A DNA stretch of 64,000 nt from Chthoniobacter flavus. GTDB lineage: Bacteria > Verrucomicrobiota > Verrucomicrobiia > Chthoniobacterales > Chthoniobacteraceae. Position 1 is the stretch's first letter, and the number at the start of each line of letters is the position of its first letter. The DNA lies in the NCBI GenBank assembly GCA_945861435.1, contig CAMAUX010000007.1, positions 1-64,000 of the forward strand, given 5' to 3'. Shown here piece by piece: positions 258-37,687 of this stretch. Under the pieces are notes generated by a model. That model was not told the origin of the DNA, made no database searches, and saw only the letters and a program-made list of their open reading frames with translations. Position numbers and translations under genes: made by a program.

Positions 258-2690
258 TTGGTCTATTCCCCGGATTTAGCTCTGAAAACCTTCACCGTGC
301 CCGAGGGTTTTCATGTGGAGCTGGTCGCAGCCGAGCCCATGGTGCAGTCCCCAGTAGCCATCAACTTCGATGCAAACGGACACCTCTTCGTGGTGGAAAT
401 GCAGGGCTACATGCAAGACCTCGGGGGGAACGGAGAGGATTTGCCCGTCGGCCGAATCAAACGGCTCGAGAGTTCCAGAAAGGACGGTGTTTATGACAAG
501 GCCGCGGTGTTTGTAGATCAGCTCGTGATGCCCCGGGCGGTCATGCCTTTTGGAAATGGCGTGCTCGCCGTCGTCCCGCCCAATCTCATCTATTATCGGG
601 ACACCAATGGCGATGGCGTCGCCGACGAAAATACGGTGATCGATGAGAAGGTGGGACAGCTCGGGGGGCAGCCGGAGCACATGCCCAATACCCCAGTGTG
701 GGCCTTGGACAACTGGATTTACCTCTCCCAACACGGAACGCGTTACCGGTTTTCTGATGGTAAATGGATCAAGGACAGCGTTGCGTCTCGCGGGCAGTGG
801 GGGCAGTCCATGGATGATGACGGACGCCTGTTCGGGAATTTGAATGGCAGTCCCCTCAATGTGAATTACTTCCCGCCGTCGCACTATGCGCGAAACCCGC
901 GTTTCGAGTCACCTGAGGGGTTGTTCGTGCCGATTATGACGGACCATACGGTATGGCCGACAGCCTCCTCGCGCGGCTTCCAGACTGGATTCAGGGAGTC
1001 CCAGGTGCGCAAAGAGAATAGCACACTCATCAGCGTCACTGCGGCGTGCGGGCCCTGCATTTACCGCGGAGACCTCTTCCCGTCCGATTTCCGCGGCAAC
1101 GCCTTTGCCTGCGAGCCTGCGGGCAATCTAGTGAAGCGCATGATCTTGAGCGAAGAGAACGGCCTTCTCTCCGCGGCCAATGCCTACAAACAACGCGACT
1201 TCTTTACTTCCACTGATGAACGCTTTCGTCCGGTGAATCTGAATGTGGGTCCCGAAGGCGCACTTTACGTCACTGACATGTATCGCGGCATCATCCAGCA
1301 CGCTTATTTCATGACGCCGTTTCTGGCGGACTATATCCGCACCCGGCAGTTGGAGCAGCCCATCAATCATGGCCGGATATGGCGCATTGTGCCCAACGCA
1401 ACCAACCCGCACCACGTGGTCCTGCCCACCCAGCCGGCAAAGCTTGTGCCTTATCTTTCCCATTCTAACGGATGGGTTCGGGACAACGCCCAGCGCATGC
1501 TGGTTTGTGCGGGAGATCAGAGCGTCAAAGCTGCCCTGCGCGAGCTGTTATCGAAAAACGAGCAACCCCTCGCCCGCCTCCACGCCTTTTGGACCTTGGA
1601 AGGACTGGGGGAATTCAAGATCGCGAAGAATCCTGATGCGTCCGAGGCGCTCCGGGCTTTCTTCACAGATACCGACCCGCGTCTGCGCGCTGCCGCGGTC
1701 AGACTCAGCGATGCGAGCGTGGCCCCCGAATTGCTCAAACTGGCAACAGATCCAGACCCGAAGGTGCGCGGCGAACTGGCCTTCCGATTCTCCTCGTTGC
1801 CTGACGAAGCCATCCAACGCGCCTTAGTGAGTCTGGCGATCATGAAGCCGCACGCCTTCGTTTCTGATGCGCTGATCTGCGGCTACGGCGGTCGGGAAAG
1901 CGACATCATCGCCGCCTTGCTTGCCCATCCTCAGCTGCCGGGAAATGAGGTGAAGATCGAGACACTGATCAAGAATCTCGCTCGCTGCGTGATGGCACGG
2001 AAACGTCCTGGTCAGGTGGCGCTCCTGCTCGACCTGGCTGCAAAGCAGAAGTTTCGCACCCCTTTGTCGAAGGCGATTCTTTCGGGAATCGCACCCGATT
2101 TGGCTCGTCTGCGTCGCGAACCTCCCCAGCGATTCATTCTCTTGAATGAGGAGCCTGTCTTGCTCGGGCGATTGGATGCGGATCCGAATAAGGCCTTAAA
2201 GGAAACTTCGGAGGGCCTCCGCTTGATGTTAGCCTGGCCTGGGAAACGAGGATTCACACCTCCCCCTCCAGTGCCCGCCCTGAACCCCAAGGAACAGGAG
2301 CTCTTCGCCAAGGGAAAACAACTCTACACCACCGTCTGCATGGGATGCCACCAACCCTCTGGTTTCGGAGCCGAGGGAGTCGCTCCGCCGCTTGTGGACA
2401 GCGAGTGGGTTCTGGGTGCCCCGGACCGTATCGTTCGTATCCTGCTGCATGGCGTGACTGGCCCGATCCGGGTCAACAACCGAACGTTTGCGCTTGAAAT
2501 GCCTCCTCTGGGTGCAGCGCTGGACGATCAGTCTGTGGCGGCCACACTCACCTACATACGGCGCGAATGGGGACACACCGCCTCGCCGGTCTCCCCCTCA
2601 CAAGTCGCCTCCATCCGCTCCAGCATCAGCAACCGAACCGCGCCGTGGACCGAAGGCGAGTTACTGGCACCCTTCACGGTCAAAAAATAA
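258..2690 (+). CDS. PVC-type dehydrogenase with HEAT repeats and C-terminal cytochrome c; 5' end apparently lost
   Basis: Residues about 10-380 match the PVC-specific sorbosone-dehydrogenase-like beta-propeller (PEGFHVELVAAEP start, blades with NGDGVADE and GPEGALYVTDMYRG). HEAT-like helices follow at about 400-580, then a mono-haem cytochrome c domain with C694-M-G-C697-H698 and a possible axial Met in EMPPL. Such proteins are normally exported oxidoreductases passing electrons to periplasmic cytochromes. Here no signal peptide is visible. TTG at 258 is only the first usual start codon: coding-like sequence in the same frame (ending ...IIPVPEQFRKPA) runs upstream to a TGA at 138-140 without ATG or GTG. 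The gene therefore looks truncated at its 5' end, or begins at an unusual codon such as CTG 159. It may be a pseudogene that kept its frame. Confidence 0.8.
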   Translation: MVYSPDLALKTFTVPEGFHVELVAAEPMVQSPVAINFDANGHLFVVEMQGYMQDLGGNGEDLPVGRIKRLESSRKDGVYDKAAVFVDQLVMPRAVMPFGNGVLAVVPPNLIYYRDTNGDGVADENTVIDEKVGQLGGQPEHMPNTPVWALDNWIYLSQHGTRYRFSDGKWIKDSVASRGQWGQSMDDDGRLFGNLNGSPLNVNYFPPSHYARNPRFESPEGLFVPIMTDHTVWPTASSRGFQTGFRESQVRKENSTLISVTAACGPCIYRGDLFPSDFRGNAFACEPAGNLVKRMILSEENGLLSAANAYKQRDFFTSTDERFRPVNLNVGPEGALYVTDMYRGIIQHAYFMTPFLADYIRTRQLEQPINHGRIWRIVPNATNPHHVVLPTQPAKLVPYLSHSNGWVRDNAQRMLVCAGDQSVKAALRELLSKNEQPLARLHAFWTLEGLGEFKIAKNPDASEALRAFFTDTDPRLRAAAVRLSDASVAPELLKLATDPDPKVRGELAFRFSSLPDEAIQRALVSLAIMKPHAFVSDALICGYGGRESDIIAALLAHPQLPGNEVKIETLIKNLARCVMARKRPGQVALLLDLAAKQKFRTPLSKAILSGIAPDLARLRREPPQRFILLNEEPVLLGRLDADPNKALKETSEGLRLMLAWPGKRGFTPPPPVPALNPKEQELFAKGKQLYTTVCMGCHQPSGFGAEGVAPPLVDSEWVLGAPDRIVRILLHGVTGPIRVNNRTFALEMPPLGAALDDQSVAATLTYIRREWGHTASPVSPSQVASIRSSISNRTAPWTEGELLAPFTVKK

Positions 2691-35939: not shown

Positions 35940-36563
35940 TCACTCGCCGAGCTCCGCGTTCCAGTACGCCAGATCCACGAACTGGAGCCAGCTCTCATGC
36001 ACGCTTGCGTCGAAAGTGATGTGCAGAAACGGCCGCCACTTCGGCCTCACAGGCTTACGGATCAGCCGCATCCCCACCTCCTGCGGCGAACGGTTCGCCT
36101 TGCGCGTATTGCACGGAATGCAGGAGCACACGATGTTCTCCCAAGTCGTAGCCCCCCCCTTATCCCTCGGCACCACGTGATCCAGGTTCAGGTCCCGCCG
36201 CTCAAACACCTTCCCACAGTACTGGCAGGTGTTGTGGTCGCGCTGAAAGATGTTGTGCCTCGTAAACTTCACCTCCTTGCGCGGCACACGATCAAAAAAC
36301 ATCAGCACAATCACCCGGGGCACCCGAATCTTGAAGGAGACCGTCGGCACCATCTCCGCCTCCGGTTCCCGCTGCGACAAATCCCGCCAGCTCTCAAATG
36401 TGTGCGTCGAGTACTGGTTGTTCGCGTCGCTGTAAACCACCTGCGCATGCCCCGCAAAAAGCAGCCCGAACGCCCGCTGCGCAGAACACACATTCACCGC
36501 CTGCCAAAGACGGTTGAGCACTAGCACCTGCGTCTCCAGTAATCGGTAGCTGAGGGAATGCAT
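35940..36563 (-). CDS. HNH endonuclease family protein
   Basis: 207 residues from ATG 36563. The N-terminal LVLNRLWQAVNV...RAFGLLFAGHAQVVY segment is typical of a widespread bacterial HNH family. The HNH zinc fold is CQYCGKVFERRDLNLDHVVPRDKGG...WENIVCSCIPCNTRK, with two CxxC pairs and the catalytic His in LDHV. It is therefore a likely metal-dependent nuclease; the cellular role of this family is unclear. It is convergent with nuoN and divergent from the small-RNA region. Confidence 0.88.
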   Translation of the reverse strand: MHSLSYRLLETQVLVLNRLWQAVNVCSAQRAFGLLFAGHAQVVYSDANNQYSTHTFESWRDLSQREPEAEMVPTVSFKIRVPRVIVLMFFDRVPRKEVKFTRHNIFQRDHNTCQYCGKVFERRDLNLDHVVPRDKGGATTWENIVCSCIPCNTRKANRSPQEVGMRLIRKPVRPKWRPFLHITFDASVHESWLQFVDLAYWNAELGE

Positions 36564-36581
36564 GCCCAAGGCGTTTCCCCG

Positions 36582-36610
36582 ACCCTAGCAGCAGCCCGTG
36601 CAAGCGTCAA
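36582..36610 (-). promoter_or_regulatory. candidate promoter of the HNH gene
   Basis: On the minus strand TTGACG (complement of 36605-36610) and TAGGGT (complement of 36582-36587) are separated by exactly 17 bases, about 20 bases upstream of ATG 36563. The -35 lies inside one of two tandem 12-mers. Confidence 0.45.
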
Positions 36611-36630
36611 TTTACCCTGTCAATTTACCC
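36606..36630. repeat. tandem 12-mer, possible operator
   Basis: GTCAATTTACCC occurs at 36606-36617 and again at 36619-36630, a 13-base period. It lies between two divergent transcription units, and each unit contains a minus-strand TTGAC. It is a candidate regulator site or a duplicated -35. Confidence 0.5.
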
Positions 36631-36666
36631 CCACCCATCTTTGCACCTTCGTGCCACGAAATTTTT

Positions 36667-36703
36667 ACAAATTTCTCTTGTCTCAGACCCTTCCCACACC
36701 TAA
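36667..36703 (+). promoter_or_regulatory. candidate promoter of the small RNA/leader
   Basis: ACAAATTTCTCTTG matches 12 of 14 positions with the nuo promoter segment (22996-23009). It is followed at nearly the same distance by ACCTAA (36698-36703). An inverted repeat GAAATTT-N4-AAATTTC (36658-36675) overlaps its upstream edge, as the Crp-like palindrome does at nuo. Confidence 0.45.
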
Positions 36704-36719
36704 AACGGATCCCATAGGG

Positions 36720-36752
36720 ATGTACGACGAGTCACTCCAGCTTTCCCCCTAA
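36720..36752 (+). CDS. possible ten-codon leader peptide
   Basis: ATG 36720 opens MYDESLQLSP followed by TAA, with AGGG immediately upstream. It lies between the candidate promoter and the hairpin, where an attenuator leader peptide would be. The first C-run encodes its final Ser-Pro. Composition alone cannot show translation; it may be chance. Confidence 0.25.
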   Translation: MYDESLQLSP

Positions 36753-36809
36753 AATTTCCCCCGGAAACAAAGTTCCCCCTGAGATCTCCCCCAGATCCCC
36801 AGAAAACAG

Positions 36810-36850
36810 GTAAACGCCGACTGAAGAAATTCAGTCGGCGTTTACTCTTT
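36810..36850 (+). terminator. perfect 16-bp hairpin with GAAA tetraloop, terminator-like
   Basis: GTAAACGCCGACTGAA (36810-36825) and TTCAGTCGGCGTTTAC (36830-36845) are exact reverse complements around a GAAA (GNRA) loop. The tail TCTTTCT is only moderately U-rich. It is the most stable structure seen in any gap of the window and lies 50 bases before the NIPSNAP start. Confidence 0.65.
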
Positions 36851-36895
36851 CTAAGGAACTCCACCCTCACGGGCTTCTCCCCCTGAATCCACCCC

Positions 36896-37687
36896 ATGAA
36901 AACCCTGCTCCTCGCCCTGCTCCCTGCTCTCCTCGCCATCGTCACCTCGATCGCCACACCAGCACGTGCCGCCGAAAAAGACTCCCGCGTCTTCGAAATG
37001 CGCACCTACTACGCCCCAGAAGGCAAACTCGACGCGCTTAACGCAAGATTCCGCGACCACACACTCGCCCTCTTCCAAAAACACGGCATCACCAGCATCG
37101 GCTACTGGGTCCCCGTGGAGAACAAAGACAACAAGCTCGTCTACGTCCTCGCCTACCCCAGCCGCGAGGCGCGCGAGACTTCATGGAAAAACTTCTTCGC
37201 AGATCCTGCATGGAAACAGGCCCGCGAAGCCTCCGAACGCGATGGCAAACTCGTCGCCAAGGTCGAACAACGCTTCCTCACCACCACCGATTTCTCGCGC
37301 TTCTCAGAAACGTCCACCAAACCAGCCACCGCATCCTCCCCAAGGGTTTTTGAATTGCGCACCTACACCACCACCCCAGGCAACCTGCAGGCCCTCCACG
37401 CGCGCTTCCGCGACCACACCATGGACCTCTTCGCCAAGCACGGCATGACCAACCTCTTCTACTGGCAACTCATGCCCGACCAGCAGGGCGCAGAAAACAC
37501 CCTTGTCTACCTCCTCTCCCACGCAAGCGTCGATGCCGCCAAAGCCTCATTCGACGCCTTCCGCGCCGACCCCGCATGGACCGCTGCACGCAACGCTTCC
37601 GAGCAAAAGGCAGGCGGCTCCCTCACCGCCCCCAACGGCGTCGAATCCCTCTTCCTCCTGCCCACCGATTACTCCCCCCTGCGCTGA
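36896..37687 (+). CDS. secreted protein with two NIPSNAP domains
   Basis: 263 residues: signal peptide (LLLALLPALLAIVTSIATPARA), then two NIPSNAP dimeric alpha-beta-barrel domains at about 32-135 and 145-260. Both start RVFE(M/L)RTY and contain LxALxARFRDHTxxLFxKHG. PVC bacteria commonly carry exported NIPSNAP proteins of unknown function. The two domains align with each other, so this is an internal duplication. No known catalytic residues. Confidence 0.88.
   Translation: MKTLLLALLPALLAIVTSIATPARAAEKDSRVFEMRTYYAPEGKLDALNARFRDHTLALFQKHGITSIGYWVPVENKDNKLVYVLAYPSREARETSWKNFFADPAWKQAREASERDGKLVAKVEQRFLTTTDFSRFSETSTKPATASSPRVFELRTYTTTPGNLQALHARFRDHTMDLFAKHGMTNLFYWQLMPDQQGAENTLVYLLSHASVDAAKASFDAFRADPAWTAARNASEQKAGGSLTAPNGVESLFLLPTDYSPLR

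Follow-up and report, generated by a model that had tools for sequence, protein, structure and literature searches.

Anatomy of the locus

The window (the whole 64,000-nucleotide stretch of DNA that was analyzed) carries a C-rich element between divergent HNH and NIPSNAP genes (Table 1). Direct reading found the five C motifs, the sixth UCCCCC, the 16-bp hairpin with its GAAA loop and the tandem 12-mer where the original prediction had put them, and Pfam agrees with its naming of the two flanking genes. The hairpin is present once in the genome, which rules out a dispersed repeat or mobile element. A cluster of four TCCCCC motifs within 70 nt occurs only here in 460 kb of the genome (both strands), and the single other dense TCCCC cluster in those 460 kb is a simple 9-bp repeat. 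Folding of the 161-nt stretch gave z = -4.9, a value that 0 of 200 shuffles matched.

The predicted small RNA would start 7-8 nt past the -10 element, with its 3' end within the U-rich tail. The ten codons form the last part of a 64-codon ATG frame (36558-36752). A terminator scan scored the opposite strand only, because the U-tail is interrupted (UUUACUCUUUCU). The NIPSNAP gene lies outside the conserved unit, although read-through from the element could extend into it and contribute to its expression. Just upstream of the promoter (~36606-36630) stands a tandem GTCAATTTACCC pair, possibly an operator or a chance duplication, which was not seen in the sister genome G003.

Table 1. Features of the C-rich element and its surroundings, in window coordinates.
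Feature	Position	Strand	Basis or remark
Promoter: TTGTCT (36678-36683), 17 bp, TAAAAC (36701-36706)	36678..36706	+	conserved among members of the family
Predicted small RNA, ~144 nt	36714..36857	+	conserved unit, covariance models R1 and R2
Ten-codon frame MYDESLQLSP, ATG...TAA	36720-36752	+	direct reading
C-rich domain: four UCCCCC and one UCCCC, A-rich linkers	36744..36800	+	direct reading
TCCCCC motifs (four)	36744-36749, 36757-36762, 36774-36779, 36787-36792	+	direct reading
TCCCC, fifth C motif	36796-36800	+	direct reading
Possible mini-hairpin UUUCC[CCC]GGAAA	36755..36767	+	weakly better than shuffles in the window species alone, p ~0.06
Possible mini-hairpin GAUCU[CCCCC]AGAUC	36784..36798	+	built like GUCU[CCCC]AGAC of the second genus (g4)
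Terminator hairpin: perfect 16 bp, GAAA tetraloop, then U-rich UCUUUCU	36810..36845	+	
TCCCCC, sixth, before the NIPSNAP start	36878-36883	+	direct reading
NIPSNAP gene	36896..37687	+	Pfam PF07978; 50 nt past the hairpin

The element belongs to a family spanning three genera

The genera are labeled g1 (that of the window genome, G000), g4 (a second genus) and g9 (a third). A DNA search of 97 relatives returned one clear homolog, in G003, which is a Spartobacteria metagenome-assembled genome (Erken isolate) and belongs to g1. This copy also lies just before a NIPSNAP gene, but behind an rlmN-like gene where the window has the divergent HNH gene. Its hairpin arms are identical to those of the window over 14 bp, with one A-U pair changed to G-U and the GAAA loop replaced by UCCG. 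Both tetraloop types are very stable. G003 keeps the TTG-17-bp promoter and five C/U-rich motifs with A-rich linkers, the first two being UUUUCCUCC and UUUUCUCCC.

A covariance model built from these two sequences (R1) was run over 213 genomes of the order and returned full-length matches beyond its two sources in G024 and G006, both members of g4. The E-values that link g1 to g4 are modest (4e-4 and 1.5e-3 per genome, with 213 genomes searched). The G006 element, used as a blastn query, was present in 10 of 12 g4 genomes. A second model (R2) was built from g4 only, and its sole match in the 5.35-Mb window genome is the window locus (E = 5.1e-7); it also recovers G003 (E = 4.7e-5). This reverse match is not fully independent, since g4 was chosen for its likeness to g1. 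Promoter spacing, neighbor independence and compensatory changes were not contained in R1. In all five g9 genomes R2 detected a shortened version that has one or two C motifs. The element is thus known from 17 genomes, which fall into three genera of a single Verrucomicrobiota family.

Matches in g2, g5, f5, f6, f9 and f13 and across the phylum were, on reading, terminators of protein genes or chance. Two loci in family f8, one in G163 (L128) and one in G091 (L182), resemble the element in having several UCCCCC motifs and a terminator. They were left out because their E-values are weak and, for G163, because a search of its family for relatives of its whole element found none. The G163 locus (L128:1500-1610) consists of a C-rich element and a terminator and has GTCACTCCAGC and AAAATTTCCCCC in common with the window. 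The G091 locus (L182, ~1500-1650, reverse strand) has several UCCCCC motifs and then a long hairpin directly past a stop codon, and is possibly a 3'UTR-derived analog.

Promoter spacing, C-loops and terminator are conserved

A TTG, a spacer of exactly 17 bp and a -10-like hexamer were found at 15 of 17 homologous loci; among these 17, no promoter was found at G024 (near a contig end) or G014. The G003 promoter reads TTGCGG-17-TACAAA, and those of g4 are mostly TTGNNN-17-TGAANT with an A-tract upstream in most. The promoter-like module of the original prediction is kept across the family, although a strict sigma-70 consensus scan of the window locus gives no promoter. In nine g4 loci the first C-run lies exactly 7 nt past the -10 element in a fixed 5' ACCCCC, so the g4 RNA probably starts at or beside this sequence.

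The number of C-runs per locus varies from one to five or so. A run of four or more C was counted as a C-loop when at least 4 bp closed the 3-8-nt loop around it. By this measure 25 of 45 C-runs in g1 and g4 are in loops compared to 7% in shuffles (maximum 26% in 500), or ~8 times as often. The excess comes almost entirely from g4, and 17 different hairpins close the loops (for example GUCU[CCCC]AGAC, GCCU[CCCCCU]AGGC and GUAUC[CCCCCA]GAUAC). Two of the five C-runs in the window species are in loops (p ~0.06) and none qualifies in G003, and for this reason the C motifs of these two genomes may be largely single-stranded, with mini-hairpins that are weak or absent. The arrangement of CCCC motifs in predicted hairpin loops that typifies the 6C/sX13/LhrC class thus appears mainly in g4.

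The terminator stem is paired in 203 of 204 cells (99.5%) across the 17 sequences. Compensatory changes occur at 7 of 12 pairs, a number beyond all 500 shuffles (0/500) and all slid controls. Within g4 alone the stem is nearly invariant, and covariation there carries no information. The tail of the homologs is U-rich on the plus strand and interrupted, and a G+C-rich stem followed by a U-tract predicts an intrinsic terminator. CsrA-type GGA loops on the minus strand (GGGGA) were ruled out by the conserved promoter and the U-rich tail, both of which are on the plus strand.

The unit is independent of its neighbors

The NIPSNAP gene accompanies the element only in G000 and G003, 2 of the 17 loci. 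The g4 copies are never beside NIPSNAP, and in 20-odd relatives, G001 and G002 of the same genus among them, no NIPSNAP gene has the element in front of it. On one side the g4 loci have an aldolase-like gene facing away, and on the other a DUF1080-like gene facing the element (five genomes), a sugar-isomerase-like gene or a pdxH-like gene. In g9 the unit stands between other genes. The g4 and g9 neighbors are named by sequence resemblance. A unit whose downstream neighbor is convergent, as in the five g4 genomes, cannot be the leader of that gene, and the element would accordingly be a free-standing transcription unit with its own promoter and terminator.

The original prediction had staked a small RNA with several C motifs on the conservation of these motifs and the hairpin in related genomes. 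Both were looked for in the relatives and both are kept, together with the promoter, in a unit that stands free elsewhere.

Comparison with known RNAs

Rfam 15 contains no match above the gathering score for the element or its homologs, only sub-threshold hairpin matches, which upholds the earlier statement that it falls in no published family. No paper on this RNA was found in the literature. Known 6C RNAs carry a pair of hairpins, each with six or more C in its loop. The G000 element has C-runs of at most 5 nt and just two weak C-loop hairpins, and across the family the runs are mostly 4-5 nt in 1-5 modules. The 6C model (RF01066) gave nothing above its cut-off in 38 relatives, and the element has no match to it even at E up to 5.

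The likeness to 6C RNA of Actinobacteria and its mycobacterial form B11 lies in a short, free-standing RNA with C-rich hairpin loops. 6C RNA binds several mRNAs through C-rich loops without RNA chaperones, according to the title of Mai et al. (2019) as cited in PMC12395582 and PMC9569102, and B11 uses Hfq-independent C-rich motifs on G-rich targets (PMC12395582). The active loop of B11 is in its terminator, whereas the terminator loop of the element is mostly a GNRA or UNCG-type tetraloop. Also intergenic and with C-rich loops (CCCC) is sX13 of Xanthomonas, a 115-nt Hfq-independent sRNA whose host lacks a consensus ribosome-binding site (PMC3771888). It has three stable stems in contrast to the variable tandem mini-hairpins of the element family, has no known sequence relation to it, and the host of the element has no detectable Hfq. 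LhrC of Listeria binds G-rich sites through redundant UCCC motifs in loops and single strands (PMC4132741). LhrC and the Rsa/RNAIII-type UCCC sRNAs of Firmicutes share with the element several redundant C motifs, but their hosts use strong Shine-Dalgarno sites, which the host of the element hardly does, and no Rfam match connects them to it.

In CsrB/RsmZ-type titrating RNAs, many copies of a short motif stand in tandem hairpin loops, and the copy number varies between species. The element resembles them in its repeated short motif, variable copy number and tandem loops. It differs in that the motif on the transcribed strand is CCCC, not GGA, and the partner protein is putative. The element most likely represents an undescribed sRNA family with variable tandem C-loop modules, of a functional kind that is already known. 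Its closest functional parallels would be 6C, sX13 and LhrC, C-rich sRNAs that need no Hfq to pair with G-rich mRNA.

Start regions and candidate targets

Hfq was not found in 38 genomes, in which the positive control was detected, so any action of the putative sRNA would be Hfq-free. Shine-Dalgarno sites precede only 10% of genes in Spartobacteria (PMC10783764, Table 1). In the sampled genomes, neither GGAGG nor GGGG shows enrichment upstream of confident start codons, and the ~10% of sampled G000 genes with GGGG at -20 to -4 equals background. Predicted duplexes were weaker at start regions than at upstream control regions, and a search for targets by duplex energy gave no enrichment at start sites. 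The proposal of the original prediction that the C motifs block G-rich ribosome-binding sites has plausible analogies (PMC3771888, PMC4132741), but in a host with few Shine-Dalgarno sites and no enrichment of G-runs it is not supported as a general rule.

The C-tracts themselves are enriched before start codons. CCCCC is present at -20 to -4 in 28 of 471 confident starts compared to 28 of 1884 control windows in g1, g4 and g9 (OR 4.2, p = 3.6e-7), with starts assigned by simple ORF rules in genomes sampled as stretches. CCCC, CCCCC and TCCCC are all enriched 4-20 nt before starts in these genera (L204-L263, the window, and L099-L118). Two small samples, taken from G013 and G046, which lack the RNA, do not show the CCCCC enrichment. 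A C-tract before the start is a possible initiation signal in this Shine-Dalgarno-poor clade.

Tandem repeats of the UUCCCCC type end directly at an ATG in G001-G003 (L082:588-640, L083:610-645, L089, L092, L093 and L094); one example consists of repeated TCGTTCCCCC followed by CCAACATG. G002 has 20 pattern matches compared to 1 in the reversed control. These arrays were rejected as homologs of the element since they are repeats before ORFs. One AGTTCCCCC array in G002 (L087:630-690, reverse strand) lies inside an apparent coding region, as if its units were spreading or undergoing amplification.

Interpretation

We favor, at somewhat better than even confidence, a free-standing gene for a trans-acting sRNA of ~140 nt whose C motifs pair without Hfq with G-rich mRNA targets. 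The sRNA would be transcribed from its own TTG-17-bp promoter, and transcription would end at the strong intrinsic terminator with its stable tetraloop. The 5' domain would present several UCCCCC motifs, which in related species mostly occupy loops of tandem mini-hairpins and which would most likely act as redundant seeds for pairing with G-rich stretches of several mRNAs. Such pairing would alter the translation or stability of the targets, as it does for 6C, sX13 and LhrC, and it is this precedent that ranks pairing above capture of a protein.

Capture would make the small RNA a decoy whose C motifs take a putative C-tract-binding factor (for example a ribosomal S1-like, cold-shock or KH-type protein) away from the C-tracts that it would bind in mRNA leaders, immediately upstream of start codons, by the logic of CsrB/RsmZ, with C in place of GGA. 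We consider this unlikely, although it is the main rival and would explain why the sRNA repeats a motif of mRNA leaders. It draws on the preference for CCCCC over GGAGG and GGGG before starts in g1, g4 and g9, on the tandem UCCCCC arrays directly before ATG in the sister genomes, on the lack of CCCCC enrichment in the small samples of the RNA-less G013 and G046, and on the variable number (1-5) of identical loop motifs, which is typical of titrating RNAs. Against it, G001 and G002 also have C-tract leaders and in neither was the RNA found, the starts were assigned by simple ORF rules, the two samples that show no enrichment are small, and the well-studied C-rich RNAs act by base pairing. A rather unlikely elaboration is that C-tract leaders aid initiation through the putative factor and that the sRNA, with its 1-5 loop motifs, titrates this factor as a CsrB-type global regulator of translation.

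A cis-acting leader of NIPSNAP is improbable. Transcription would start at the promoter and usually stop at the hairpin, and read-through would depend on translation of the ten codons or on a factor that binds the C motifs; the hairpin does lie ~40-50 nt before the NIPSNAP start in G000 and G003, which leaves little room for a second promoter. The frame, put forward earlier as an alternative reading (leader peptide with an attenuator), stands where it was noted but is absent from G003, most homologs have no NIPSNAP gene nearby, the g4 and g9 units often lack any co-directional downstream gene, and NIPSNAP genes elsewhere do without the element. The composition of the 71-nt domain (29 C, 8 G) would suit a Rho-loading (rut) site that forms a transcription-stop or insulation module with the intrinsic terminator. 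This is very unlikely, given that rut sites are unstructured whereas the C-runs of g4 are in hairpin loops far above chance, that the dedicated promoter and the fixed 5' ACCCCC are left unexplained, and that no gene ends at the locus in G000. An ordinary terminator next to chance low-complexity C-tracts in a C-rich genome is very unlikely as well. Scattered triple-TCCCC matches in the window genome are indeed about as frequent as in the reversed control, but promoter, C motifs and hairpin are kept across genera, the stem covaries, and a model from another genus finds the locus in its own genome at E = 5e-7.

No paper on small RNAs in this bacterial group was found in the literature. A conserved C-loop RNA here would be a further independent case of the design used in mycobacteria, Xanthomonas and Firmicutes. 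Because the host hardly uses Shine-Dalgarno sites, the dependence of C-rich RNAs on a G-rich ribosome-binding site could be put to the test in it, and such an RNA would draw attention to the C-tracts that precede start codons as a candidate initiation signal.
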